From Deltaproteobacteria bacterium (GTDB lineage: Bacteria; Desulfobacterota; Desulfobacteria; Desulfobacterales; JAFDDL01): a stretch of 16,809 nucleotides of DNA. The notes under the pieces were generated by a model that saw nothing but the letters and a program-made list of their open reading frames with translations, was not told where the DNA came from and made no database searches. Shown here in pieces: positions 3,799 through 16,502 of this stretch. The position numbers and the translations under genes were made by a program. Numbering within the stretch: position 1 is the first letter of the stretch; the number at the start of each line of letters is the position of its first letter. Location: NCBI GenBank assembly GCA_019310865.1, contig JAFDDL010000034.1:1-16809 (forward strand), given 5' to 3'.

Positions 3799-3916
3799 CT
3801 TACGGTTCAGGGCAAGGCCGCAGCATTTTTTCAACCGCAAGCATAGTAAGCCTATCGGAGTCTTCGCTTACCTCTGAGGATTGAAAAAATGCTCGAACGC
3901 CGCCCTGGGACGTAGG
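3799..3916. repeat. 118-bp imperfect palindrome between convergent genes (possible bidirectional terminator)
   Basis: The arms are a perfect 12-bp inverted repeat (GCATTTTTTCAA at 3823-3834, TTGAAAAAATGC at 3881-3892). They extend outward through imperfect pairing to the CAGGGC/GCCCTG hexamers (3808-3813 and 3902-3907) and a further partly paired segment to 3799/3916. Inside is a second stem, GTAAGC/GCTTAC (3846-3851 and 3866-3871). The element fills most of the 173 bases between the stop of the aminotransferase gene (plus) and the stop of the metallo-hydrolase gene (minus), where a two-way transcription terminator would be expected. It could also be a dispersed repeat; its copy number cannot be judged here. 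Confidence 0.6.
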
Positions 3917-3947
3917 AAAGCGAGTTTGCGAGACTCCGGGATGCCAG

Positions 3948-4958
3948 TCATGGATGGGCACTGCTAAACGCTTCGGCAGCTTCTTGGTAAAGCAAGTCCG
4001 CCATCCCGGTGTAGCGCGGAGAGAAGTGAAACAGGGTGTATTGCTTTACCTTTGCCTCTTTGGCGATGTGTCCGGCAATTCTTGCGGTCAAATGCCGTTT
4101 TTCATGCGCAATGGCGCGGTCTGCATCCAGAAATGAGGCTTCAATATATAGATGATCCGCCCCCATTGAAAAGGGGATTATCTTTTCGAGATTCTTCAGA
4201 TGACCGGCGACGTCGGCAATATAAACGATTTCCTGCCCCGGGGTGATTTGGGCGATTTCATCGGACAGAGCCCCCAATTTGAATACCCGATCTGTTTCGG
4301 TCTCGTTGGCGTGCCGGGCAATAAAATCGCTTTCCAGGTCCTGACCGTTATAGAGCGCCTGCTTGAAGTCACGAATCCATGGCCCCACCGTTAACCCAAG
4401 CGGTGCCAGTGCCTGCTTGCGTATGTTGATATGAAACCGTTCCTTGAGCCGGAACGCCAGGCAGCCGATTTTATGATCCAGAATCACCGTTTCGATCTTC
4501 AAAATGGGCTCTTCGTGTATTGTGGGGGTAAAGGGCTCTCGCCGCGGCGGATTTCGCGCAATAAATCGATCCGCGCACTCGTATACCTGTATCAGCCGGC
4601 AGTCCGGTCTGGCCTCAACGGCGCAAATGGACAATCGGTTGGTATAATGGTCCACAAGATTCCATGTGTAGCCGGACAGCTTTCCCTCGATCTTTTCCAG
4701 AAAACCCTCGGGCCCGAAAAGCGATAGCCGCCGTTCCCGGCCCAGCATCACTCGAAGCAGATGATCAAAACCGATAAAATGGTCCATATGGGTATGGGTG
4801 ACAAAGACATGGGTGATTTTCAGGATATCGCGGGTCGAAAGCGTGACAATATCACCGAGGTCAAATAGGATGGCGCGGTTTTCAAAGAGGAACTGTACGA
4901 ACAGCGCCGGATCGTGAAAGGGGTCGTTGACGAGCTTTGGGTGAAACGTCGGGCGCAT
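3948..4958 (-). CDS. Metallo-beta-lactamase-fold hydrolase, ribonuclease Z-like
   Basis: This 336-residue cytoplasmic protein belongs to the metallo-beta-lactamase superfamily and most resembles the RNase Z (tRNA 3'-processing endonuclease) branch. The zinc motif is THTHMDH at residues 54-60 (HxHxDH), followed by FIGFDHLLR as in RNase Z. Other family-like segments are FGPEGF (81-86), a LDHKIGCLAFRL segment like the RNase Z LDHxxxCxGYR, a VYIADV segment with the bridging Asp, YIEASF, and a C-terminal FHFSPRY resembling the HxSxRY end of tRNase Z. Whether it processes tRNA or another phosphodiester is not shown; a second canonical RNase Z elsewhere would make a different substrate likely. The start ATG (4958) overlaps the stop of the upstream 140-residue gene as TGATG, so translation is coupled. 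The gene ends just before the palindrome. Confidence 0.85.
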   Translation of the reverse strand: MRPTFHPKLVNDPFHDPALFVQFLFENRAILFDLGDIVTLSTRDILKITHVFVTHTHMDHFIGFDHLLRVMLGRERRLSLFGPEGFLEKIEGKLSGYTWNLVDHYTNRLSICAVEARPDCRLIQVYECADRFIARNPPRREPFTPTIHEEPILKIETVILDHKIGCLAFRLKERFHINIRKQALAPLGLTVGPWIRDFKQALYNGQDLESDFIARHANETETDRVFKLGALSDEIAQITPGQEIVYIADVAGHLKNLEKIIPFSMGADHLYIEASFLDADRAIAHEKRHLTARIAGHIAKEAKVKQYTLFHFSPRYTGMADLLYQEAAEAFSSAHP

Positions 4959-5380
4959 CAGGCCGGGATATATTTGCTGACTTGCTTATGGATACAATAG
5001 TATATTTCTTCATCGGATCCAAAAATATCGATAACATCCTTATGGTTGATGACGGTTTCCAGTACGAATGCCGTAATGTATAAACTGACGATGTTCGCAT
5101 TGTTGATCAGGTGCCGGATTGGGGCGATGGAATAATCAACATCGAAATCTTCGGCCCGTCCAAGGACCTCTATGCACGATTGCAGCTGATCTTGCAATGA
5201 CGTTTTATTGGTTGTTTCAACGAGTTTGTTTTCCACAAGCTTCATGGAAATTGAATTGGCAAGCGGTTCCACACAGTCCCGGGTGGCGTCGATTGAACGT
5301 CGTCTGGCGAACTCCTTGGATGATTCGATCTTGGATAAAATGCTTGCCTCCCGCGTGCTGGGCCGAAAGACTTTTGCCAT
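4958..5380 (-). CDS. Hypothetical protein of 140 residues, coupled to the RNase Z-like gene
   Basis: I do not recognise this family. The product is a soluble 140-residue protein with no signal peptide or membrane helix. It has a basic N-terminus (MAKVFRPSTREASILSKIESSKEFARRRS) and a mixed helical body. A hydrophobic stretch around NANIVSLYITAFVLETVI is too interrupted for a membrane span. The C-terminus carries FGSDEEIYYCIHKQVSKYI. The helical pattern would suit a small regulatory or adaptor protein, but this is only impression. A GAAAGG ribosome site sits 8 bases before ATG 5380. Its TGA overlaps the ATG of the metallo-hydrolase by one base (4958), so the two proteins are probably made together and may act together. 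Codon use resembles its neighbours. Confidence 0.72.
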   Translation of the reverse strand: MAKVFRPSTREASILSKIESSKEFARRRSIDATRDCVEPLANSISMKLVENKLVETTNKTSLQDQLQSCIEVLGRAEDFDVDYSIAPIRHLINNANIVSLYITAFVLETVINHKDVIDIFGSDEEIYYCIHKQVSKYIPA

Positions 5381-5485
5381 AGTTGTGCCTTTCTATTTTT
5401 TTAACAGCATAAAAGAACAGTGTACATTCACATCAAACGCAACATTTAGCGGCAATGCGTTCGAAATGCAAGGGGAAAAAACAAA
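5381..5485. other. Intergenic gap within the minus-strand cluster
   Basis: These 105 bases lie between the wecB stop and the start of the 140-residue gene. On the minus strand the gap opens with a T-rich stretch just after the wecB stop. It contains a small hairpin with 6-bp arms (AACGCA at 5436-5441, TGCGTT at 5456-5461), and is A/T-rich close to the next gene. It could hold a weak terminator or a second promoter, but no convincing -35/-10 pair was found. Confidence 0.35.
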
Positions 5486-6574
5486 TTATCCAAAACGGTG
5501 CTTAATGGACTGGACGATTCGCTCGGCCGTCTTGCCGTCCCACAACTCAGGTGGGTGTCTTTTCTCGGTTGCACCGGACATTGCGGAAGTAACAGCGGTT
5601 TCCAATGCCTCAATTTTGCACAGTTTATTGGTGCCTTTTTCAATGGTAATCGGTCTCTCCGTATTGGGACGCAACGTGAGGCAGGGGATTCCCAGATAGG
5701 TGGTTTCTTCCTGAAGGCCCCCGGAATCGGTGATGACCAGGCCGGCGTGAAACACCAGGTTCATAAACCGTATGTAGTTCAGCGGGGGCATCATCAATAA
5801 TTTCGATTCGGCTTGGAGCGTTGCCATGAGATTGTTTTTTTCAAGATTGTTTCGAGTTCGCGGATGCACCGGAAATACGAGGGGAAACCGACGGGACACG
5901 TTAATAAGCGCTTCACACAGGCTCTTGAGGGTATCGGGCGGATCCACATTTGCCGGCCGGTGAAGGGTGACCAGGCCGTAATTGCCCGGTTCAAGGTTCA
6001 ACTCCTTGTGGTATGCGTCCGCTTCAATGGGTTCCCTGAGCATTTCAAGGGAATCGATCATGATATTGCCGACGCGCTCAATTTTTTCTTGGGAAACGCC
6101 TTCACGGAGTAAATGGGCATCGCCGTCCGGTGACGGCGTCCATAAAAGATCAGCGAGGGTGTCGGTAACGAGCCGATTGATTTCTTCGGGCATGGTTCGA
6201 TCAAACGAACGAAGACCTGCTTCAAGATGCGCCAGGGGTATCAGCAATTTGGCGGCAACCAGGGACACGGCGACCGTTGAATTAACATCACCGACCACAA
6301 CGATCAGATCCGGTTGTTTCTCCAAGGCCGCCTTTTCGTAAGCGATCATGACCTGGCCCGTTTGCTCGGCATGCGTGCCGCTGCCCACGCCCAAGTGGAT
6401 ATCCGGCGGCGGCAGGCGCAGGTCCGTAAAGAACGCATCCGACATGTTCAGATCATAATGTTGACCGGTATGCACCAGCAGGGGGTGCGCCCAGTCTTTT
6501 TCCTTCAGGGCATGATACAGTGGGGCGATTTTCATGAAGTTGGGACGAGCGGCAGCTATCAGATGGATGATCAT
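5486..6574 (-). CDS. wecB: UDP-N-acetylglucosamine 2-epimerase (non-hydrolysing)
   Basis: This enzyme interconverts UDP-GlcNAc and UDP-ManNAc in the cytoplasm, providing ManNAc-type precursors for surface polysaccharides. Length (362 residues) is normal. Family motifs in order are AARPNFMKIAP (8-18), HTGQHYD (35-41), VVGDVNST (93-100) with the catalytic-region Asp 96, HLEAGLRSFDRTMPEEINR (116-134) with Glu 118 and Glu 132, TLHRPANV (203-210) with His 205, and TDSGGLQEE near the C-terminus for UDP binding. The HRPxNVD form marks a common WecB-like subfamily rather than the HRREN form of enterobacterial WecB. An AGGAG ribosome site lies 7 bases before ATG 6574. The gene starts 18 bases after the stop of the mechanosensitive-channel gene and so probably shares its transcript, separate from the other sugar genes here. 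Confidence 0.95.
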   Translation of the reverse strand: MIIHLIAAARPNFMKIAPLYHALKEKDWAHPLLVHTGQHYDLNMSDAFFTDLRLPPPDIHLGVGSGTHAEQTGQVMIAYEKAALEKQPDLIVVVGDVNSTVAVSLVAAKLLIPLAHLEAGLRSFDRTMPEEINRLVTDTLADLLWTPSPDGDAHLLREGVSQEKIERVGNIMIDSLEMLREPIEADAYHKELNLEPGNYGLVTLHRPANVDPPDTLKSLCEALINVSRRFPLVFPVHPRTRNNLEKNNLMATLQAESKLLMMPPLNYIRFMNLVFHAGLVITDSGGLQEETTYLGIPCLTLRPNTERPITIEKGTNKLCKIEALETAVTSAMSGATEKRHPPELWDGKTAERIVQSIKHRFG

Positions 6575-6592
6575 TATCGTGCTCCTATTTTT

Positions 6593-8071
6593 TTATATTC
6601 CGAAAAACTGTTTGATCCGGTTGATGAGTGTTTGGGAACCGCCGGCATCATCGGCCGAGTCTTTGATGATGATACCCTTATCTTTCTGTCTATCGAACAT
6701 GACCTGCCCGATTTGTTCCGAAATATGCGGATTGGAGATCATCACTGTAGAAAACACGTCCTTGTCGATGACAACCAACGATGTATCTTCAACTGCCCGG
6801 ATGGTGGCGGTCCGCTCATATCCCGTGAGCAGGCTGATTTCGCCGAAAAAATCACCCCGGCGCATGGTGGACAGCAGTTTCAACTGCTTGCTCTCATCAA
6901 CCTTCATGGCTTCACAGGCCCCCGAACGAATGATGTACATCGAATCGCCGGAATCGCCTTCTTCAACGATGAGTTCCTCATTTCCATAAACCTCGATGCC
7001 GACTCGGCCGGCCAGGTCGGATATCTCGGTGTCCGACAATGGGGCCAAGATCGGTACGTTGGCAAGCATCTGTTCGATCTCGGATCGCAGGGCCTCATTT
7101 TGCTCCTTTGCAAATTTCCGCTCGATGTGTCCATGAAAAACATCCCGAATGGGGAAGGGGATGCGAATATCGTTTCTTCTGAGTGCATACCAGAGTTGTC
7201 GATTGATATCGGCATTGATCTGGGGTTCCTGAGCATAGTTCTTATGCCAGTAGCGTATTTCGTAAGTAATGGCGAAATCACCGAATTCGTTGAGCCGAAT
7301 ATTCGGCCGGGGTCGTTTCAATACCCGGGGATGCTGACGGAGCACATCCTTTAATACCGCCGCGACCTTATTGGGCGGGGCGCCATATTCCACACCGATG
7401 TAAATTCGGGCGATTTTCTTCCGTGTCGGTTTGGAATAGTTGCGAAATGTGCTTGATGCCAAAACGGCATTGGGGATGTAAACCAGAACCTGTTCACGGG
7501 TGAGCACCTGGGTTGATTTCCATGAAATACCGACCACGCGCCCCTCATGATCGTCAAAGCGAATCCAATCTCCGATGCTGAAGGGATTCTCGGCCTGTAT
7601 GATCAAGCCCGAAAAAAAATTGCTCAAGGTCGTCTGGGCCGCCAGACCAATTACGACGGTCAATACGGCGGATGTGGTCAGGAGACTGGCCAGATTAACG
7701 TTGCTTCGAAACCGCAAGACAATCAGCAGCAGAATGGCGAAGCTGATAAACAATATAAAATCACGGGTGATTTTCGGCAGGCTGCCTTTGCCGTCCCTTA
7801 GCTGGGGAGGAATTTCAAACACAAGCCAGAAAACCACGCGCGCCAAGGCCCAGGCAAGAAATAATTCAGAGGCGATCCGGAAATACCGGGGCCATTCACC
7901 GGACCATGGGAATTGATACAGAAATTGAGAGATGAGGCCGAACAGAAAGTAGCCCACCAGAAAAAATAATGGAATTGCCGGCAGCATTTTGGAATTTTTT
8001 GCCGCAACCAGGTAGCCGGCAACCAGAATGGCACCCAGCAACATGATCCAAGAAAAAGTGACCGTTTCCAT
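6593..8071 (-). CDS. MscS-family channel with C-terminal cyclic-nucleotide-binding domain (bCNG type)
   Basis: This is an inner-membrane channel of the small-conductance mechanosensitive superfamily, carrying a cyclic-nucleotide sensor. In 492 residues it shows about four or five membrane helices (roughly 8-26, 32-52, 62-86, 103-121 and a pore-lining 127-158). A canonical MscS beta-domain follows: NFFSGLIIQAENPFSIGDWI at 151-170, VLVYIPNAVLASSTFRNYS at about 195-213. A cyclic-nucleotide-binding domain spans about 340-455. Its phosphate-binding cassette FFGEISLLTG...ERTATIRA (408-426) retains the ribose-binding Glu 411 and phosphate-binding Arg 420. Such fusions are known as bCNG channels; many gate on cAMP and respond weakly or not at all to tension. 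I chose ATG 8071 because a strong GAGGAGG (complement of 8082-8088) precedes it; an in-frame ATG at 8101 would place that site inside the coding region. It is divergent from the cyclase gene and upstream of wecB. Confidence 0.93.
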   Translation of the reverse strand: METVTFSWIMLLGAILVAGYLVAAKNSKMLPAIPLFFLVGYFLFGLISQFLYQFPWSGEWPRYFRIASELFLAWALARVVFWLVFEIPPQLRDGKGSLPKITRDFILFISFAILLLIVLRFRSNVNLASLLTTSAVLTVVIGLAAQTTLSNFFSGLIIQAENPFSIGDWIRFDDHEGRVVGISWKSTQVLTREQVLVYIPNAVLASSTFRNYSKPTRKKIARIYIGVEYGAPPNKVAAVLKDVLRQHPRVLKRPRPNIRLNEFGDFAITYEIRYWHKNYAQEPQINADINRQLWYALRRNDIRIPFPIRDVFHGHIERKFAKEQNEALRSEIEQMLANVPILAPLSDTEISDLAGRVGIEVYGNEELIVEEGDSGDSMYIIRSGACEAMKVDESKQLKLLSTMRRGDFFGEISLLTGYERTATIRAVEDTSLVVIDKDVFSTVMISNPHISEQIGQVMFDRQKDKGIIIKDSADDAGGSQTLINRIKQFFGI

Positions 8072-8357
8072 ATTCCCGCGACCTCCTCTATCAGAAAACA
8101 AAACCCGGCAACCGTGTGATACACGTCGACGTTTCGAGGTTGATTGTAAGATTTTACATTAATACGTGCCATATCGGTCTGTCAATGCGAGTTGCGGTTT
8201 TTTCCGAGCCCCTATATCTGCTCGATTGACTGGTTATTATATGTATGATATCAATTCATAAACTCGGTTTGTTTTTTAAATTGGGCGCTTATGTGCGAAC
8301 CCGAATCACCCGATTGTGCTTATTGCCTTTGAATCTGAAACGAGAGCGGAATGAGTG
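8072..8357. promoter_or_regulatory. Divergent intergenic region with small dyads between channel and cyclase genes
   Basis: This 286-base non-coding region must hold the promoters for both divergent genes. Visible dyads are CGTGT-GAT-ACACG (8113-8125), the 10-bp palindrome ACGTCGACGT (8123-8132) overlapping it, TGTAA-GATT-TTACA (8145-8158) and TGATATCA (8246-8253). The first three lie within 90 bases upstream of the channel gene and are candidate operators. None matches the Crp consensus (TGTGA-N6-TCACA) as a whole. Confidence 0.45.
8226..8254 (+). promoter_or_regulatory. Candidate sigma-70-type promoter for the cyclase gene
   Basis: TTGACT (8226-8231, one mismatch to TTGACA) is followed after 17 bases by TATCAA (8249-8254, four of six matches to TATAAT), about 104 bases before the cyclase start. 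The spacing is ideal and the region is A/T-rich. The -10 match is weak and overlaps the TGATATCA dyad, so this is a tentative call. Confidence 0.35.
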
Positions 8358-9857
8358 ATGGCCAACAAGATCATACCGAAGAACCTGTTTGGATATCGAG
8401 GCCCTGAAAGACGCGAGGGTGACGAACGACGCAAGAGCTTGCAGCCCATCACCACTGCGGATCTGCGCAGTGGGAAAGACCGGCGCGATAGGAGGCGGCT
8501 GCCCATATTCGCCAAACTGTCGATCCTGTCTGCATTGCAGATGTTACTGGTGGTTTCCATTATCAGCCTGACAATGCTGGCAAAGCAAAAGCAACAATAC
8601 ATCGATCAACTCATTGATTTCGGTGTCGATATTGTGAAGATTGCCGCCCACAATTCCCCGGATAAGCTGCTCAGCGAAGAGGAAGTGTCTTTATTCCAAT
8701 TGGTTAAGGATATATCGGAAAACGAGCAGGTCCGATTTGCCATGATTGTTGATACCCGCAAGCGAATCGTGGCCCATAGCCAATTCGAACGGGTTAATAC
8801 GACCTACTCCCCCCCGGAAAACCTGGAATTGATCGACGAAAGAGATGAAACGACGATCAGTAGCTTTACGGACGGTGGGGAGCCCTTGCTGCATTTCAGG
8901 CAACCGATTACCTATCAAAAACTGCAGGTTGGTATAGTGGTATTGGCCCTGACCCAGCAGACCCTATTTGACACAATCCGCGAAGCAACTATCTTTATTT
9001 TGGTGTTAACGGTTGTCATCCTCGCGATTGGATTGGCAACCAGCGTGTTTGTGAGCTTGTACTTTTCCCGGCCGATTGTTGAATTAAAAAAGAGCGCCCA
9101 GGTGCTTGGCAGGGGTAATTTTTCATATCGGCTGAACATCAACCGTAACGATGAACTTGGGGATTTGGGAAAGGCCTTCAATCAGATGGCCGCAGGCCTG
9201 GGTGAGCGCGAGTTGATTCGTGAAACCTTTGGTAAATATGTTTCGCCGGAGATACGCGACCGGATTCTCTCCGGTGACATACCCTTAAACGGCGAGCGGC
9301 GCGAAGCGACCCTGCTTTTTTCAGATCTACGGGGGTTTACGGCCTATGTGGAAAAAAATGAGCCCGAGGAAGTCATCCAGAGCATGCGAGCCTATTTCAG
9401 CGTCATGGAAGCGGCCATCAAGAAACATGGCGGCCTGGTGCTCCAGTATGTCGGCGATGAAATTGAAGCGGTTTTCGGGATTCCCATCACCGTGGGTGAC
9501 CATGCTGAAAGGGCCATGCTGGCGGCCCTGGACATGCGCCAGGCGTTGATCGATCTGAACCGAGAACGCGCCGCGTCCGATTTGCCGCCGTTTAAGCACG
9601 GTATTGGAATCTATACCGGCAAGGTCCTTGCCGGCAATACGGGCAGTGACGAGCGCCTGTCGTATACCCTGATCGGAAATACCGTCAATCTGGCATCACG
9701 CATTCAGGGTATGACCAAAGAGATTGGATGGGACATTCTCGCTCACGAAAGCACCCTTGAGCGAACTACCCGTCCCTTCAACGTTGTTAAGGAAGACCAG
9801 CACAAGGTCAAAGGATATTCCAAATCGATCATCGTTTACCGGCTGATCGGGGATTAG
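8358..9857 (+). CDS. Membrane-bound class III adenylate/guanylate cyclase with HAMP domain
   Basis: This inner-membrane signalling enzyme makes a cyclic nucleotide, most likely cAMP. The 499-residue protein has an Arg-rich cytoplasmic N-terminus with repeated RR motifs (GPERREGDERRK, GKDRRDRRR), a first membrane helix (about 53-74), a periplasmic sensor region (about 75-208), a second helix (about 210-235), a HAMP linker (SRPIVELKKSAQVLGRGNF onward, about 237-290), and a catalytic domain (about 314-499). Both metal Asp residues are present (FSDLRGFT, D323; YVGDEIEAVFG, D367), as are the purine-contact Thr 437 in YTLIG and transition-state Asn 444/Arg 448 in VNLASR. The position usually held by the purine-selecting Lys is Gln 363 (LQYVGD). 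ATG 8358 follows GAGCGGA; a GTG at 8355 is the alternative start. The TAG stop overlaps the first base of the following palindrome. It is divergent from a cyclic-nucleotide-binding channel, its likely effector. Confidence 0.92.
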   Translation: MANKIIPKNLFGYRGPERREGDERRKSLQPITTADLRSGKDRRDRRRLPIFAKLSILSALQMLLVVSIISLTMLAKQKQQYIDQLIDFGVDIVKIAAHNSPDKLLSEEEVSLFQLVKDISENEQVRFAMIVDTRKRIVAHSQFERVNTTYSPPENLELIDERDETTISSFTDGGEPLLHFRQPITYQKLQVGIVVLALTQQTLFDTIREATIFILVLTVVILAIGLATSVFVSLYFSRPIVELKKSAQVLGRGNFSYRLNINRNDELGDLGKAFNQMAAGLGERELIRETFGKYVSPEIRDRILSGDIPLNGERREATLLFSDLRGFTAYVEKNEPEEVIQSMRAYFSVMEAAIKKHGGLVLQYVGDEIEAVFGIPITVGDHAERAMLAALDMRQALIDLNRERAASDLPPFKHGIGIYTGKVLAGNTGSDERLSYTLIGNTVNLASRIQGMTKEIGWDILAHESTLERTTRPFNVVKEDQHKVKGYSKSIIVYRLIGD

Positions 9858-10016
9858 GATCGGGAACGAAATAAATTGGACGAAGATTGCGAAGGATTTA
9901 GGTTCGTATTCAAGGCGCGTTAAAGGTTGCATACTATACGTATGTGGGCTTTAACGCAACGCCGAAGACGGACCTAAAGACGAGCAATATCGTTCAAGTT
10001 ATTTGGTTCACGATCC
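9857..10016. repeat. 160-bp near-perfect palindrome (MITE-like or structured repeat)
   Basis: The two halves pair along nearly their whole length around a centre at 9937. The outer arms run from GGATCG (9857-9862) to CGATCC (10011-10016) and share about 26 of 34 positions. The inner arm GCGTTAAAG (9917-9925) pairs perfectly with CTTTAACGC (9949-9957). The tip is CATAC-TATAC-GTATG (9930-9944). Both ends are flanked by TTA (9854-9856 and 10017-10019), compatible with a 3-bp target duplication, although three bases can match by chance. It contains no gene. It begins on the last base of the cyclase stop codon and ends 23 bases before the deacetylase start. It may be a miniature inverted-repeat element, a REP/BIME-like repeat, or a terminator for the cyclase gene. 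Confidence 0.8.
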
Positions 10017-10038
10017 TTACAATTTAAGGAGACCGGCG

Positions 10039-11061
10039 ATGCAAAAGAATCGACTTTCACTACGGCCGGGTGCTGTATGTGTCATGGGGCTGTTCATGCT
10101 CGTTGCCCTGGTGACGATCGTCCCCCAGGTTATGGGCGCAGGTTCGGCGGGGGATACTATTTCCTATCGTTCGGCCGATTATGTGATCCACCGGCTTCAA
10201 GAAGGTGAAACTTACGCCTTGCTGGCCCAATGGTACCTGGGCAATTCCAATGAAGCCTGGCGTATAGCCGCGGCCAATGAGGGTAAACCGCTTCTGAATA
10301 ACCGGTATGTGGTCATTCCCTTAAAGCAGATCAATCTGGGCGGTCTGACAGCGGAAGGGTACCAGACCATACCGATTCTATGTTACCACCGGTTCGGAAA
10401 ATCCTGCCGGTCGGTGTTGTGTATGCCCGCTGACGTGTTTGACCGTCAATTGCAATACCTAAAGGATCAGGGGTTTCAGTCCATATCGCTATCCATGCTG
10501 CATGATTTCATTAAATTCAAACGCGACTTGCCGCCCAAATCGGTTATCATCACCATCGATGACGGCTACCGATCCGCGTTCGACATTGCATACCCCATTT
10601 TAAAAAAACACGGATTTACAGCCACATATTTCGTCTATACGGACTTTGTCAGTGCGACGCGAAGCGCCATGAATTGGGATCAACTGCGCCGGATCAAGGC
10701 CGATGGCTTTGAGATCGGGTCCCACACACTGACCCATGCGGATCTGACAAAACCCAAACCCGGTGAAAACCGCAATGCCTATCTGAAGCGCATCAAACAT
10801 GAGCTGGCGCAATCCAAAACGATTATCGATGAGAAACTCAAGCAGGATACCCGTTTCATTGCCTGGCCTTTTGGTAATTCCAATCCGGGCGTGGAAAAGC
10901 TCAGCGAAGATGTCGGCTATGCATTTGGTCTTTCGGTCAGGCGGGGCAGCAATGCGGTTTTCACCGATCCGCTTGCCTTGAATCGAGACCAGGTTTTAAG
11001 CCGGAAAATAGAAAAATTCGCCACCAGACTCAAATCTTTTAAGGAATCCGAATTGAGGTAA
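10039..11061 (+). CDS. Secreted polysaccharide deacetylase (NodB/PgaB-like) with N-terminal LysM-like domain
   Basis: This predicted exported or membrane-anchored enzyme removes N- (or O-) acetyl groups from a polysaccharide. The 340-residue product has a signal peptide or anchor at 1-34 (hydrophobic 12-30, ending VMGAGSA). A LysM-like segment lies at about 47-95 (DYVIHRLQEGETYALLAQWYL, ending RYVVIPL), and a carbohydrate esterase 4 domain at about 110-300. Metal residues are visible: ITIDDGY (D174/D175) and SHTLTH (H229, H233). The third motif is WPFG (276-279), as in PgaB-like enzymes, rather than RxPY. The C-terminal RRGSNAVFTDPLALNRDQVL segment recurs in this LysM-deacetylase subfamily. 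ATG 10039 has AAGGAG at 10026-10031; an in-frame TTG at 10003 lies inside the palindrome and is rejected. The next gene starts 7 bases after the stop, indicating an operon. Confidence 0.88.
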   Translation: MQKNRLSLRPGAVCVMGLFMLVALVTIVPQVMGAGSAGDTISYRSADYVIHRLQEGETYALLAQWYLGNSNEAWRIAAANEGKPLLNNRYVVIPLKQINLGGLTAEGYQTIPILCYHRFGKSCRSVLCMPADVFDRQLQYLKDQGFQSISLSMLHDFIKFKRDLPPKSVIITIDDGYRSAFDIAYPILKKHGFTATYFVYTDFVSATRSAMNWDQLRRIKADGFEIGSHTLTHADLTKPKPGENRNAYLKRIKHELAQSKTIIDEKLKQDTRFIAWPFGNSNPGVEKLSEDVGYAFGLSVRRGSNAVFTDPLALNRDQVLSRKIEKFATRLKSFKESELR

Positions 11062-11068
11062 CTTGAAC

Positions 11069-12196
11069 ATGAAGTCATACACGGTTGTTTTGATTCTCGT
11101 TGGGATGATGTGGATGACGGGCTGTGCGACGACAACGCCGCGACGGGTTAGCCAGAAAACCCTTGATAAGGAGGCCGTCCAATTATATGCCGGCTTTATC
11201 CAGTCCGCCAAAAGCCATGCCGAAAGCAACAACTACCGAGAAGCGCTGGAATCTTATAAGCTGGCGTTGACCGTAAAGCCCAACGACAACGCCGCTCTGG
11301 AGGGCCGTCGTCAGATGGAGAATATGGCCGCGCGTAAAGCGCAGGAATATTATCAGCAGGGACTTCGGTTAAACAAACAGGGCAAGTATGCATCGAGTCG
11401 CGAACGGTTCATGGCCGCATTGCGCCTGAAGCCCGACTACGGCGATGCGCTGGAAATGCTGACCCGCCGGCAGCGGATTCAAGTGACCGATTATGTGGCG
11501 CACACCATTGCGCCGGGGGAAAACCTGAGCATCGTGGCCAAGAAATACTACGGTGATTACAAGCAGTTTAAAGCCATCGCCGAGTTCAACGAACTCAAGG
11601 ATGCAACCCAGATTCGGGTCGGCCAAATGGTAAAAGTACCGCGGGTTGACACCTTGCCGTTTAACGCTGATCCATCCATAATCGTGTCGGCCTGGTCCCC
11701 CGAGGAGACGGATTCCGAAGCGACCGACGAGATGGTCGATCAGGTCGCCATTTACCGGGATCAGGGCATGGCGCTTTTCAAAGAGGCGCGCTACGAAGAG
11801 GCGGCCTATGAGTTTAATAAGGTGATCAGCAGCATACCCGATGATACCGGTGCAAAACAATACCTGTCACGCTCCTATTTTCGTATGGGGGAATCGGTTT
11901 TCCAGAAGCAGCAATACATGCCCGCAAAACAGCTTTTTCAACAGGCGCTGACCCAGGATCCCAATTGTCCGAAATGCAGTAAATTCATCGACAAATGTGA
12001 GACAAAATTCATAGCGGTTCACTACAACAAGGGGGTCACCTTTTTTGAACAGGAGCAGCCCAAGGATGCCATTACCGAGTGGCGAAAAGTAGAAGCGATT
12101 AATCCTGGTTACAAGCAGGTGACCGCCTTAATTCGGAAAGCGGAGACCATTTTAAAAAATCTCGATGCAATTTTGAAGATGGGCGGCCGTAATTAA
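11069..12196 (+). CDS. TPR- and LysM-containing lipoprotein
   Basis: This is a predicted outer-membrane or periplasmic lipoprotein (375 residues). The N-terminus MKSYTVVLILVGMMWMTGC is a lipoprotein signal peptide with lipobox MTGC and acylated Cys 19. Two TPR blocks (about 35-122 and 225-350; for example NYREALESYKLALTVKPN, RYEEAAYEFNKVISSIPD, YMPAKQLFQQALTQDPN) flank a LysM domain at 141-192 (DYVAHTIAPGENLSIVAKKYY, ending GQMVKVPRV). TPR lipoproteins such as AlgK scaffold polysaccharide export and modification complexes, and LysM binds GlcNAc-containing glycans. It could therefore link the deacetylase and acetylation machinery to the cell wall or polymer; this role is inferred from architecture and context. 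C300, C303 and C310 form a C-x2-C-x6-C cluster in a TPR turn. ATG 11069 is preferred because GAGG lies 10 bases upstream; TTG 11063 is too close to it. Confidence 0.85.
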   Translation: MKSYTVVLILVGMMWMTGCATTTPRRVSQKTLDKEAVQLYAGFIQSAKSHAESNNYREALESYKLALTVKPNDNAALEGRRQMENMAARKAQEYYQQGLRLNKQGKYASSRERFMAALRLKPDYGDALEMLTRRQRIQVTDYVAHTIAPGENLSIVAKKYYGDYKQFKAIAEFNELKDATQIRVGQMVKVPRVDTLPFNADPSIIVSAWSPEETDSEATDEMVDQVAIYRDQGMALFKEARYEEAAYEFNKVISSIPDDTGAKQYLSRSYFRMGESVFQKQQYMPAKQLFQQALTQDPNCPKCSKFIDKCETKFIAVHYNKGVTFFEQEQPKDAITEWRKVEAINPGYKQVTALIRKAETILKNLDAILKMGGRN

Positions 12197-12232: not shown

Positions 12233-13660
12233 ATGATCTTTTCCAGCACCCTGTTTCTGTTTGCGTTTCTTCCGGCGGTACTGGTCTGCTATTATGGCCA
12301 AAAAATACTGTCACCGGTCGGACTGCGAAACGCAATACTTCTTTTTTTCAGCTACCTTTTTTATCTGCATGGCGCGACCGATTTCCTTCTGGTCCTGATT
12401 GTTTCCACCTTACTAGACTTTATTCTGGGTCTATTCATGGTGCGCCATGCCTATTTTAAACGGCTGTGGCTGCTTTTCTCGCTGGTTTTGAACCTGGGCC
12501 TTCTGGTTTACTTCAAGTATGCGAATTTTTTTGTAACGGAACTCAATGCGATCTTCCCGCATGTGAGCTTATCCGCCATCCATTGGGAGCATGTGCTGCT
12601 TCCCATCGGGATTTCTTTTTTCACGTTCCAGAAACTCAGCTATATCATCGATGTCTACCGCGGCAAGAGCCGCCCGGCGTCAAACATGATCGACTTCGCA
12701 CTTTACATCGCCATGTTTCCCCAACTGATTGCCGGCCCCATTGTCCGTTTCGGGCAAATCCGAGATCAACTGAAAATCAGACGCGAGTCGTGGAATGCCT
12801 GTTTTCATGGCATTCTGCGGTTTTGCTGGGGGCTGGGCAAGAAGGTGATGATTGCCGATTCCTGCGGCCGGATTGCGGATGTGGTTTTCAGTATGCCGGT
12901 TTCCCTGCTGGATACCAAAACGGCCTGGCTCGGCGCAATCGCATACGCCCTGGAGATCTATTTTGACTTTTCAGCCTACTCGGATATGGCCATCGGGCTT
13001 GGATTGCTGTTTGGTTTCAGGTTGCCTGAAAACTTCCAGCGACCCTATTCAGCCATCAGTATTCGGGATTTTTGGCGCCGCTGGCACATGACCCTGGGCC
13101 AATGGTTCCGGGATTATCTCTATATTCCACTTGGGGGCAATCGCGGCGGAATCGTGAGGACCTGCATGAACCTGTCGATTGTCTGCGTTCTTTGCGGATT
13201 GTGGCATGGTGCCGGTTGGACCTTCGCGTTATGGGGGATTTATCACGGCGGTTTTATGGTGATTGAGCGGTTGGGTGGCCTGCGGGATCGCTCGCCTGGA
13301 AAATACATTGTCCTGCGTCGCGGCGCAACCTTATTGATCGTTATCATCGGATGGGTGCTCTTTCGCTCCGAAACCCTTACGGGTGCCTTGGGTTATCTGG
13401 GGGCCATGGCAACCCTCACCGATCTACCCATGACCTACGAATTGAAAAGCGTACTGAATCATCGCAACCTGTTTTTCATGGCAATGGCGCTGCCTGTATT
13501 CTTTCTGCCGGGCGATTTTTCGCTGCTGCAACGCTTCACGCGCACAAACGATCGGGTGCTGCAATTTTCGGGTATCGTATTCATCCTGATATTGCTGCCG
13601 TATTGTGTCGGGTTGATGCTGGGCGATGTGGAGAGTTCGTTTATATATTATCGGTTTTAG
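12233..13660 (+). CDS. MBOAT-family O-acyltransferase (AlgI/DltB-like)
   Basis: This integral inner-membrane protein (475 residues, about 10-12 helices) is predicted to pass acetyl groups from a cytoplasmic donor to the periplasm for polysaccharide O-acetylation. It starts MIFSSTLFLFAFLPAVL, the usual AlgI N-terminus. It contains the family landmarks LLPIGISFFTFQKLSYIIDVYRG (split at 122-144), FPQLIAGPIVRF (162-173), EIYFDFSAYSDMAIGLG (241-257), RDFWRRWHMTLGQWFRDYLYI (278-298) and CGLWHGAGWTFALWGIYHG (321-339). The last holds the catalytic His 325; His 285 lies in WRRWH. Length matches AlgI. It follows the lipoprotein gene by 36 bases with only a weak ribosome site and precedes the AlgJ/AlgX-like gene by 3 bases, the usual AlgI-AlgJ pairing. 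No lesion is seen. Confidence 0.93.
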   Translation: MIFSSTLFLFAFLPAVLVCYYGQKILSPVGLRNAILLFFSYLFYLHGATDFLLVLIVSTLLDFILGLFMVRHAYFKRLWLLFSLVLNLGLLVYFKYANFFVTELNAIFPHVSLSAIHWEHVLLPIGISFFTFQKLSYIIDVYRGKSRPASNMIDFALYIAMFPQLIAGPIVRFGQIRDQLKIRRESWNACFHGILRFCWGLGKKVMIADSCGRIADVVFSMPVSLLDTKTAWLGAIAYALEIYFDFSAYSDMAIGLGLLFGFRLPENFQRPYSAISIRDFWRRWHMTLGQWFRDYLYIPLGGNRGGIVRTCMNLSIVCVLCGLWHGAGWTFALWGIYHGGFMVIERLGGLRDRSPGKYIVLRRGATLLIVIIGWVLFRSETLTGALGYLGAMATLTDLPMTYELKSVLNHRNLFFMAMALPVFFLPGDFSLLQRFTRTNDRVLQFSGIVFILILLPYCVGLMLGDVESSFIYYRF

Positions 13661-13663
13661 AAG

Positions 13664-14380
13664 ATGAAAAAACTACTCTGCCTGATATTTTTCTGCATAA
13701 TCATTTCACCATTCGTTATGTGGATCGGTGGCCTCGATGTGGAGACACCCATTAAGCGTATGGAACTCCAACCCCCCCCCCTTCAAGGACGCGCCTTGTT
13801 TGATAAGGCCTATCACCGGGCGGTGAATCGCTATTTTACCGACAACTTCCCGTTTCGAAGTCTGCTGAGATATGTTTCAAACCTTGCAGACTACCGGATT
13901 TTTTCAACCTCCAATGCAAAACAGGTTTATGTGGGCGCAGACGGCTGGCTCTATCCGGAAAAATCGATCAAACGGCTCTATAACTACACGGATTACGATC
14001 CGGCCGACATTGAGCGATTGGTGCTGACCCTCTGCGCGCTGGAACGTATCGTCACTGCCACCGGCCGCCGATTCTATTTTGTTATGGTGCCTGAAAAGGC
14101 AAGCATTTATCCTGAGTTTACGGGAATCGATCCGAGCGTTGCCTCACGAAACCCCAGTTCATGCGAGCGGTTATGCCAATATGCGAAGATATATGGCTTA
14201 GAGAGCCTTCTGCGGGCGGATCGGCCGCTTCTGGCCGCAAAGGGAGATGCCGGGCTGCTTTATGATAAGACGGCCACCCATTGGAATGCGATGGGCGCAA
14301 AGGTTGCAGCCGAATTTATCCAAAGCCGCGTTTTTCAATCGGAGCCTCGCTTTGTTGGGATTTACCAGGACCAACGATGA
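13664..14380 (+). CDS. AlgJ/AlgX-like SGNH O-acetyltransferase, N-terminal part (cut by frameshift)
   Basis: This frame encodes the N-terminal part of a periplasmic, membrane-anchored AlgJ/AlgX-type transferase that would receive acetyl groups from the MBOAT protein and place them on polymer. The 238 residues comprise an N-terminal anchor (1-22), a NRYFTDNFPFRSLLR segment, GADGWLYPEK (91-100), MVPEKASIYPEF (141-152) and LLYDKTATHWNAMGAKVAAEF (split at 198-218). The last is the DxHW motif, but the Asp is Ala 204 (His 206 kept). The frame then stops at 14378-14380 without the nucleophile block. That block (GYGDSF) continues in the next frame at 14433-14452, so the coding sequence carries a +1 shift near 14331. 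A C10 tract (13772-13781) lies in codons 37-40. The start 3 bases after the MBOAT stop indicates coupling. It is a broken gene unless the frameshift is programmed or a sequencing error. Confidence 0.82.
   Translation: MKKLLCLIFFCIIISPFVMWIGGLDVETPIKRMELQPPPLQGRALFDKAYHRAVNRYFTDNFPFRSLLRYVSNLADYRIFSTSNAKQVYVGADGWLYPEKSIKRLYNYTDYDPADIERLVLTLCALERIVTATGRRFYFVMVPEKASIYPEFTGIDPSVASRNPSSCERLCQYAKIYGLESLLRADRPLLAAKGDAGLLYDKTATHWNAMGAKVAAEFIQSRVFQSEPRFVGIYQDQR
13772..13781 (+). repeat. Poly-C tract (C10) in coding region
   Basis: Ten consecutive C bases lie within codons 37-40 of the AlgJ-like gene, just after its membrane anchor. Long G/C homopolymers are typical slipped-strand sites in surface-polysaccharide contingency genes. 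At length 10 the reading frame is maintained across the tract. Confidence 0.9.
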
Positions 14381-16502
14381 TGTGCCGGTGCGATATTTTC
14401 TGGGACCGACCCGGATGAATCTGCCAATTGGAATCGGTTACGGCGATTCGTTCATGGACAATCTATCTGTCTATCTGGCCCGGAATCACAGGCGCCTTGA
14501 CGTCATACGAACCGGGCATATTCCGTCTCGGAAGCACGGTGAAGACCTGCGCAAATCCGATATCATATGGATTGAACGTTCGGAATCGGACTTGATCGGT
14601 CTTGATATCGATATCGATACGATTTATTCCCTATTTGAGCCGGAGGCCGAAATACCGGACCGGATCCCCGTGGATCTGGGTGCCTTGGATCCCGTAAAGG
14701 GCATCTCGATGCAACGCGGGGCCGGCAGCGTCACAGTAAAATCCATGGGTGCACATTCGTTTTTCGAGCTTCCCCTGTCGGCTGCTTCTGAATCGGCTTC
14801 TTCTGAAAAGGATGTATTTCGTGTGCTGCACCTGACCGTAACGGCGCTCTATGCGGATTTTATGACGGTTCAATACACATCGGATCACCCCATAACATTG
14901 AAGCGGCCATTAAAGCCCGGCCCCAATGATCTTTATTTGCCACTGCCGAGTTCCCGAAGTTTGACCGTGAAAATTTTCCCCGGTTCCCGGGCCGGTGTGC
15001 TCACGGTGCATTCCGCAGAGATCATGGTCTTTTACGATGGATACGGGAAGCAGGAGATACCGGAACAAACCGGCTTGCCTGGCCAAGATGAAATCCAGGT
15101 CGCAAGCCGTGCTCTCAATTTGAATCAAGTGGAAACGAGGGTTAAAGAATTCGAAACGACGCCGAACGTGAAGGTGGATGAAAGTTTTGCGGCCGGTTTG
15201 AAATTGTCGGATTATGAGGATGGGCGCATTTTTCAACGCCGCGGCCATGCGGCCGATATCATTGTCTCGGGCCGGTACAACGGTCCGCCGACCGTGATCG
15301 AAGCCCGGGTGATACGCGATGAAGCAACTGATCCGGTTGTGGCCTGGTCCGCCATCGATGCCCAACCCGAAAACGGCATTTTTGTGGGTGTTTTACCGGA
15401 CGTGCCCCAGGGGGGATGGTATCATATTCAAATTCGCAGCAAAGACAATCCCCGTATCTCAGATGCCGGAATCAGTAGATGGGGCGTGGGTGTTTTGGCA
15501 GCCTGCCTGGGCCAGTCCAATATGAAGGAGTGGTTTCATGCCGGTGAAGATTTAACGGCCGATCCACTGCTTCGCATCTATGGGCAAGGCGGCTGGACAC
15601 CACCGGGCATTATCGGAAATGGTGCCATCGCATTTGGAAACACGATGGTCGCTCGCTTGGGTATTCCGGTTGGATTGCTCGATTTTTCCGTAAACGGGTC
15701 CGGTCTGAGAAAAGAGGCCGATTGGGGAACCGGGTTTTGGGAGGATCGCTTACCCGGGGGCATATACGATCAATTTGTCAGTGGGGTGACCGACGCAGGC
15801 GGCGCCCTGGAATTTGCCGTCTGGACCCAGGGCGAAGCCGATGCTGCCAGGGGATCGGTGACCGAAGGAGAATACCGGGACTCCCTTGAAAGTTTTATTA
15901 CAAACCAGATAAGAACCGACATAGAAAACGCATCGGAATCCCCCAATCTGCCCTTTCTGGTGGTGATGATGGTCAAACGGCCCGGGGGTAAAGACGCCCC
16001 CCACCAGGCCATTCGAAACGCAATGCGACAGGTGACCGAAACCGTCGCCGATTGCTATCCGGCGGCCACCACACTGGATCTGCAAAACCAGGGCCGGCAG
16101 CACCTGGCGCCCGAAGCTTACATCACCCTGGGCCGGCGGGTCGCCCAGAGCGCTTTATATACCCTGGGAATGGCGGATTACCATCGGGGCCCATCGGTCG
16201 AGAGCGCGCTGCAACGAGATGCGCATCAATTGCAAGTCCGATTGCACCACCGGGGTGGGACGGATTTCACGCCCGATTCCGGGCTCACGGGTTGGACGGT
16301 CATTGCAGAGGGTAAACCGGTGCCCGTTTCCAAGGTGTATCGGCATGATTCGCAAACAATTCGGATAGACCTTGCGCGGCCAGTGAACAAACCCATCCGT
16401 ATCCGGTATCTATATGGCGCCATGCCGGATGCCGGCCGAGCGGTTCGGGACAATTCAGACATGCGACTGCCGTTGGAAGAATTTGAAATTGAAATTAAAT
16501 AA
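14247..16502 (+). CDS. C-terminal part: SGNH nucleophile block, beta-rich linker and sialate O-acetylesterase-like domain (frameshifted continuation)
   Basis: This frame (open from about 14247; the meaningful part starts near 14335) continues the AlgJ-like domain: VRYFLGPTR, then IGYGDSFMDNLSVYL with nucleophile Ser 68 of this frame (nt 14448-14450), and SDIIWIERSESDL. It is followed by a beta-rich stretch (about 130-415). A second SGNH-type domain of the sialate O-acetylesterase family follows: GQSNM (422-426, Ser at nt 15516-15518), VWTQGEADA (525-533) with Glu 530, and QHLAPEAYITLGRRVA (618-633) with His 619. A C-terminal immunoglobulin-like module ends near LPLEEFEI. There is no ribosome site at its first Met, so independent initiation is unlikely. 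Joined to the upstream frame it would be a protein of about 945 residues, which could both add and remove acetyl groups on the same polymer. Assignment of the esterase family is firm; its substrate is unknown. Fragment status depends on the frameshift. Confidence 0.82.
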   Translation: MPGCFMIRRPPIGMRWAQRLQPNLSKAAFFNRSLALLGFTRTNDDVPVRYFLGPTRMNLPIGIGYGDSFMDNLSVYLARNHRRLDVIRTGHIPSRKHGEDLRKSDIIWIERSESDLIGLDIDIDTIYSLFEPEAEIPDRIPVDLGALDPVKGISMQRGAGSVTVKSMGAHSFFELPLSAASESASSEKDVFRVLHLTVTALYADFMTVQYTSDHPITLKRPLKPGPNDLYLPLPSSRSLTVKIFPGSRAGVLTVHSAEIMVFYDGYGKQEIPEQTGLPGQDEIQVASRALNLNQVETRVKEFETTPNVKVDESFAAGLKLSDYEDGRIFQRRGHAADIIVSGRYNGPPTVIEARVIRDEATDPVVAWSAIDAQPENGIFVGVLPDVPQGGWYHIQIRSKDNPRISDAGISRWGVGVLAACLGQSNMKEWFHAGEDLTADPLLRIYGQGGWTPPGIIGNGAIAFGNTMVARLGIPVGLLDFSVNGSGLRKEADWGTGFWEDRLPGGIYDQFVSGVTDAGGALEFAVWTQGEADAARGSVTEGEYRDSLESFITNQIRTDIENASESPNLPFLVVMMVKRPGGKDAPHQAIRNAMRQVTETVADCYPAATTLDLQNQGRQHLAPEAYITLGRRVAQSALYTLGMADYHRGPSVESALQRDAHQLQVRLHHRGGTDFTPDSGLTGWTVIAEGKPVPVSKVYRHDSQTIRIDLARPVNKPIRIRYLYGAMPDAGRAVRDNSDMRLPLEEFEIEIK
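14331..14380 (+). other. Probable +1 frameshift site between the two halves of the AlgJ-like domain
   Basis: The reading frame of the AlgJ-like domain changes from frame 2 to frame 3 between THWNAMGAKVAAEF (ends about 14318) and the GYGDSF block (14433-14452). The T5 run at 14331-14335 is the likeliest place. Removing one T reads through as VFNRSLALLGFTRTNDDVPV with no stop. The frame-2 stop TGA is at 14378-14380. The cause may be a real mutation, an assembly or sequencing indel, or less likely programmed frameshifting. Confidence 0.7.

Follow-up and report, generated by a model that had tools for sequence, protein, structure and literature searches.

The window analyzed here (the whole 16,809-nt stretch, contig JAFDDL010000034.1 of a Deltaproteobacteria bacterium) carries, one after the other on the plus strand, a gene for an MBOAT acyltransferase and coding sequence that joins an AlgJ/AlgX-like SGNH domain to a second SGNH module of the CE20/SASA esterase type (hereafter, the fusion). 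Comparison with relatives of both genes leads us to propose, with moderate confidence, that they make up a cell-surface acylation cassette of two genes in sulfate-reducing bacteria, the Desulfobacterales, in which an AlgJ-like domain stripped of its active site (pseudo-AlgJ) would serve for docking and the CE20/SASA module would act as the catalytic partner of the MBOAT.

The architecture is well conserved. Searching with the window's C-terminal frame returned 352 proteins at E ≤ 1e-3, of which the best 120 were examined; leaving out the window's own product gives the 119 listed relatives to which the counts below refer. PF16822 (ALGX) and PF03629 (SASA) occur together in 111 of them, SASA alone in six and ALGX alone in two, and an alignment (A2) was built from 71 of the 120 listed proteins. 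Scanning genome contigs with two short patterns from the SASA half found 21 loci (L001-L021), all titled as members of Desulfobacterales (including Desulfobacteraceae, Desulfosarcina, and Desulfatitalea) or as Deltaproteobacteria, and including complete Desulfosarcina alkanivorans and D. widdelii chromosomes; the latter, from an environmental sulfate reducer, holds L020. The N terminus of the fusion is reached in 18 of these loci (in L012, L015, and L021 the contig stops short of it), and in all 18 both halves form one open frame with an MBOAT homologue directly upstream. The gap between the two genes, counted up to the position that aligns with residue 1, is 5-8 nt in 15 loci and 103-206 nt in the other three. 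Because the genes around the pair vary between loci, for example a Ser/Thr kinase, a PP2C phosphatase, and an FHA-cyclase upstream in L010, a gyrase A gene upstream in L018 and L020, and a GPAT_C acyltransferase downstream in L020, the pair behaves as a cassette. The original prediction for this DNA had located the AlgJ-like and SASA motifs correctly, and had described both SGNH domains as lying on one extracytoplasmic-type polypeptide beside an MBOAT; relatives bear this out, since they carry the two domains in one chain rather than always as separate genes. Across the phylum the fusion is rare, because among the 25 of 395 sampled genomes that its profile matched, the C-terminal half was matched in G002 only.

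As for the N-terminal half, a profile built from 26 diverse fusions matches AlgJ of known structure (PDB 4o8v) with an E value of 4.2e-7, and PDB entry 2apj weakly (E 0.14). The catalytic residues of Pseudomonas putida AlgJ are D190, H192, and S288, and the Pseudomonas aeruginosa enzyme no longer supports alginate O-acetylation in vivo when it carries D193A or H195A; the family is further marked by signature I, hydrophobic residues followed by P-x-K, and signature II, (R/K)TDTHW (accessible part of PMC4148444). When the fusions are aligned with this enzyme, its T-D-T-H-W falls against t-s-t-y-W, and the catalytic columns have largely lost their residues. Asp is found in one and His in nine of 116 listed relatives; Ser is found in one of 119 and replaced in the remaining 118. 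A complete Asp/His/Ser triad occurs in none of the 119 relatives and none of the 18 loci, nor in eight further fused loci, several of which are letter-identical to L001-L021, seem to come from the same genomes, and so were not counted as new. Within the 200 columns of the domain, the His column lies at the 86th entropy percentile, Ser at the 78th, and Asp at the 50th. The domain seemingly still folds under constraint, because the Trp of signature II and the Asn and Gly beside the site are near-invariant in the listed relatives, and the Pro and Lys of signature I are each present in 113 of 119 (five of the remainder being gaps). The AlgJ-like half of the family may well be a docking pseudoenzyme whose active site has been lost. 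The window has VMVPEK at signature I, followed by K-T-A-T-H-W and G-D-S-F; Ser and His are thus present, the former in a domain broken in frame, Asp is replaced by Ala, and the D-x-H of signature II reads A-T-H.

These counts bear directly on the function that had been suggested for the fusion, namely both writing and erasing O-acetylation with a single chain. The occurrence of both SGNH domains in one conserved chain beside an MBOAT speaks for it, as do the Ser and His of the window's AlgJ-like half. However, no listed relative and no locus has the complete triad, the window has Ala at the very Asp whose Ala variant abolishes acetylation by AlgJ (same part of PMC4148444), and the window gene is broken inside this domain. 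Writing and erasing by one chain, largely refuted by the triad counts, was rejected as very improbable; of the original prediction, the conserved dual-SGNH chain beside an MBOAT stands, and the function proposed for it is not supported.

Unfused PF16822 loci served as a control. They came from the eight genomes that hold the cassette and from 194 genomes of the order, 37 of which matched, and covered the matches for which a locus was available (30 of 47 order-survey rows, plus those of the cassette genomes). Aligned with a profile of 18 rows picked for having D-x-H, 16 of the 20 control loci have both Asp and His at the catalytic place. L049, with Val in the Asp column and its His kept, is the lone control locus seen without Asp; L048, L054, and L055 fall outside the coverage of the alignment. 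Both L032 and L053 have Asp and His, followed in L053 by Pro instead of Trp, and a regular-expression match to a D-x-H-type motif in L044 lies off the catalytic place.

The unfused AlgJ-like protein nearest to the fusion profile in the 395-genome search (E 5e-55, the next unfused protein scoring 1.7e-28) is encoded directly behind an MBOAT ending in FIYFRF. In the 16 kb around its gene, frames of at least 100 aa lack GQSN, and tblastn found nothing that matches the SASA part of the second window frame. This protein (P0240, from Deltaproteobacteria bacterium GWB2_55_19) belongs to a nearest unfused group of five, P0240-P0244, in which the triad is kept throughout, with D-S-H-W and A/C-D-S-F in 5/5; P0244, a 221-aa fragment, was placed in the group by 72% identity and left out of the tree. 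Unfused AlgJ-like genes with Asp, His, and Ser, lying behind an MBOAT and nearest to the fusion clade, are those of L088 (7611-8759) and L059.

Two trees of the AlgJ domain were computed, the first with 55 rows and the second with 56, after removal of F_windowN, F_L011, U_L062, and U_L069 and addition of five others. In the 56-row tree, the fused sequences group into a single clade (support 100/99), and four members of P0240-P0244 lie beside it; since the tree was rooted at its midpoint, whether this group is truly "sister" depends on the root. In the 55-row tree, the N-terminal piece from the window groups with the long-branched L011, and given this grouping we are unsure whether its Ser and His were retained or regained. 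As far as these alignments reach, loss of the triad goes with fusion, the fused clade being degenerate and the nearest unfused group intact. The simplest history would be one in which an MBOAT-AlgJ pair with a live triad gained a CE20 module once, after which the old site decayed; a single gain is consistent with the tree and not proven by it.

As for the C-terminal half, the letters GQSN of block I are present in all 119 listed relatives, and the QGE of block III has its Gly and Glu in all 119 and its Gln in 114. Block V keeps its His; three residues before it, all 119 listed relatives and all 21 loci have Gly instead of the canonical Asp, so that the canonical DxxH (DxH in CE20_II) is not found in the fusions; less close SASA relatives have Asp at this place in 47 of 51 cases. 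Loss of the AlgJ triad, together with this universal Gly, could mean that both SGNH halves are inactive and that the protein surrounds the MBOAT as a scaffold, either structural or polysaccharide-binding. We regard this as improbable, for the GQSN Ser, the QGE Glu, and the block-V His are invariant in all listed relatives, unlike the drifting columns of the AlgJ site, and the simplest reason for such invariance is that a working Ser-His site has been retained. By this comparison, the CE20/SASA module plausibly supplies the only conserved nucleophile of the fusion.

The MBOAT of the window, for its part, looks competent from its sequence. It ends, as do its homologues in all 18 loci, in FIY[YF][RK]F (FIYYRF in the window), which fits the FXYXXF acyl-tyrosine shuttle motif, and H285, H325, and H338 are invariant across the 18 loci. 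The Tyr of this motif is auto-acetylated in PatA, and an acetyl-Tyr peptide can donate to PatB (accessible part of PMC12148441).

Potential partners of the MBOAT were surveyed in the eight genomes that hold the cassette. Seven of the eight encode no PF16822 protein other than the fusion, and seven carry a single PF03062 MBOAT, which is the copy adjoining the fusion. The eighth, G003, adds a second MBOAT and an AlgX protein that is unfused and has DSHW. DltD was found in none of the eight, and PF13472 proteins are present in four and absent in four. Thus G004, G005, G007, and G008 have no DltD, PF13472, or other PF16822 protein, DHHW and other SGNH families not having been searched. Since the SASA profile matched seven of the eight genomes and missed G008 despite the fused frame there (L010), such Pfam absences are not proof. 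The survey bears on the alternative that the CE20/SASA module is an editing esterase, which would trim or proofread the polymer while the AlgJ-like half docks or binds, the acetyl group coming from the MBOAT directly or from another SGNH protein. It is a possibility that we take seriously and nonetheless doubt: where the sole MBOAT of a genome adjoins the fusion, and especially in the four genomes just named, the MBOAT would be left without a transferase, barring a family outside the search or an incomplete genome. For the module, a role as O-acetyltransferase is therefore our preferred, if provisional, assignment.

Under this preferred assignment, the MBOAT would load acetyl from acetyl-CoA onto the Tyr of FIYYRF, a motif observed here whose chemistry we infer from PatA. 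The N-terminally anchored pseudo-AlgJ domain and a carbohydrate-binding-module (CBM)-like domain would, as their folds suggest, dock on the MBOAT and hold the polysaccharide, and the GQSN Ser of the CE20-like module would take the acetyl group and pass it to the polymer. A domain descended from esterases would thereby have taken over the role of AlgJ. Such a hand-over, in which the CE20 module became the acetyl acceptor and changed from hydrolase to O-acetyltransferase through a Ser-His site with Gly for Asp as the AlgJ site decayed, is put forward tentatively and with somewhat less than even confidence.

Several points weigh against this scheme. No sequence feature shows transfer over hydrolysis, and the CE20 site may be weak, since the Asp of block V is Gly throughout. 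Docking and sugar binding are read from fold similarity only, in a model with a mean predicted local distance difference test (pLDDT) score of 66.4. The PF13472 proteins, which are of the GDSL type and occur in half of the surveyed genomes, could serve the MBOAT, as could members of SGNH families outside the search; several of the eight genomes are drafts, that of G007 amounting to only 1.9 Mb. The AlgJ-like half has not lost its catalytic residues everywhere, in view of the Ser and His of the window and the His of nine relatives. In L017 (9063-12278), the block-III Glu is replaced by Ala (QGAADAAR), a possible further decay.

In the window, the MBOAT gene is followed by two overlapping plus-strand frames, 13664-14380 (238 aa) and 14247-16502 (751 aa), whose features are listed in Table 1. 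The first, with an N terminus that was judged by eye to be hydrophobic and to be an anchor or signal, covers positions 1-133 of the 268 in the PF16822 profile and scores 48.5 bits, above the curated cutoff of 26.5. The second matches PF03629 and has the profile and fold of SASA/CE20 proteins. A search of NCBIfam with both halves matched no family, and a search of the PDB with the single C-terminal frame gave no match. Compared with P0002, an intact relative of 949 aa, the first frame corresponds to residues 1-227 (39% identical) and the second, from its own residue 36, to residues 250-948. This two-frame alignment puts the break inside the AlgJ-like domain, between the D-x-H and G-D-S motifs. 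The window copy is broken in frame and probably does not yield the full-length protein, barring a sequencing or assembly error, which may lie behind the break. A programmed frameshift is not favored, given the single frame in 18/18 loci and the roughly 20 residues missing relative to P0002. Each frame is long, and the second has possible start codons in a TTG at 14355 and a GTG at 14382, which would allow the two halves to act as separate proteins of a split gene. This is extremely unlikely, for the split falls within one domain and between its catalytic motifs, the second product would have no signal or anchor, and the same loci have one uninterrupted frame.

Table 1. Features of the MBOAT-fusion pair in the window
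Feature	Position	Strand	Basis
MBOAT, AlgI/PatA type, 475 aa	12233..13660	+	PF03062, 8.1e-23
FIYYRF at MBOAT C terminus, fits FXYXXF acyl-tyrosine shuttle motif	13640..13657	+	Sequence
N-terminal piece of fusion: hydrophobic N terminus and first half of AlgJ/AlgX-like SGNH domain	13664..14380	+	PF16822, 1.3e-12
KTATHWN, counterpart of AlgJ (R/K)TDTHW	14267..14287	+	Family profile aligned to AlgJ 4o8v
Reading-frame break; about 20 loop residues missing relative to P0002	14345..14354	+	Alignment to P0002
GDSF, counterpart of AlgJ nucleophile motif	14442..14453	+	Alignment of listed relatives
CBM-like beta sandwich, limits approximate	14652..15039	+	Equivalence to P0002 350-473
CE20/SIAE-like esterase module: N-terminal beta domain, SGNH core, C-terminal beta domain	15180..16502	+	
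GQSNM, block I, nucleophile Ser	15510..15524	+	Ser in 119/119 listed relatives
WTQGE, block III	15822..15836	+	Gly and Glu in 119/119, Gln in 114/119 listed relatives
DLQNQGRQH, block V	16077..16103	+	Gly and His each in 119/119 listed relatives

The neighborhood of the pair holds further genes. Upstream in the window, 10003-12196 (+) encodes a polysaccharide deacetylase (PF01522) and then a LysM-TPR protein, homologues of which lie near the cassette in nine and six of the 21 loci, respectively. Side by side and divergent are genes for an MscS-type channel that carries a cyclic-nucleotide-binding domain at its C terminus (6593-8101, minus strand) and for an sCache-HAMP adenylate/guanylate cyclase (8355-9857, plus strand); the cyclase may supply the ligand of the channel. 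At 4958-5380 on the minus strand, a 140-aa protein for which NCBIfam gave no match adjoins an RNase Z-like gene. The kinase, PP2C, and FHA-cyclase genes upstream of the MBOAT in L010 occupy 3837-8218 and hint at phospho-regulated polysaccharide acylation; frames of similar length occur in L004 and L008.

We file the fusion family as a variant of the MBOAT-SGNH acylation systems, an AlgX-SASA fusion not being described in the titles and abstract openings searched (bioRxiv preprints and most subscription papers lie outside this coverage). According to a review of the SGNH superfamily, SASA proteins mostly lack an added domain, and a small share of them carry glycosyl hydrolase domains (accessible part of PMC9487903). 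In the published MBOAT-SGNH model, it is the SGNH protein beside the MBOAT that receives the acyl group (accessible part of PMC12148441). This expected acyl-receiving domain is degenerate in the fused clade and intact in the nearest unfused group, and an esterase-type SGNH fold has been attached to it. The fused clade is thus a natural experiment on what an MBOAT needs from its partner, and with it one can test directly whether a scaffold of esterase type is able to turn into a polysaccharide acyltransferase. The family is a caution for annotation as well: its proteins should not be called simply "sialate O-acetylesterase," a name seen among the listed relatives, or acetyltransferase on the strength of a Pfam match.

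The cassette shares with PatA/PatB, AlgI/AlgJ, and DltB/DltD an MBOAT with a C-terminal FXYXXF, followed by an SGNH protein with a hydrophobic N terminus, and the AlgJ/PatB1-like fold of these systems recurs in the N-terminal half of the fusion. It differs from them in that the AlgJ-like triad is incomplete in 119/119 listed relatives and a second SGNH module, of the CE20/SASA type, has been added. With AlgJ itself (PDB 4o8v; PF16822), the fusions share the profile match, signature I, and the Trp of signature II, whereas the catalytic D, H, and S are largely replaced and a CE20 module follows at the C terminus. Compared with CE20 esterases and SIAE (7kmm, 8f9o, and 9h4u; PF03629), the module of the fusions has Gly for the block-V Asp in every listed relative, is joined to a pseudo-AlgJ domain, and is paired with an MBOAT. 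OafB is a two-domain acyltransferase of the AT3-SGNH kind. In this kind of enzyme, of which OatA is another, a membrane acyl relay is likewise coupled to an SGNH catalyst (accessible part of PMC12148441). The cassette departs from AT3-SGNH enzymes in having one SGNH domain joined to another and, as its membrane component, an MBOAT that is a protein of its own.

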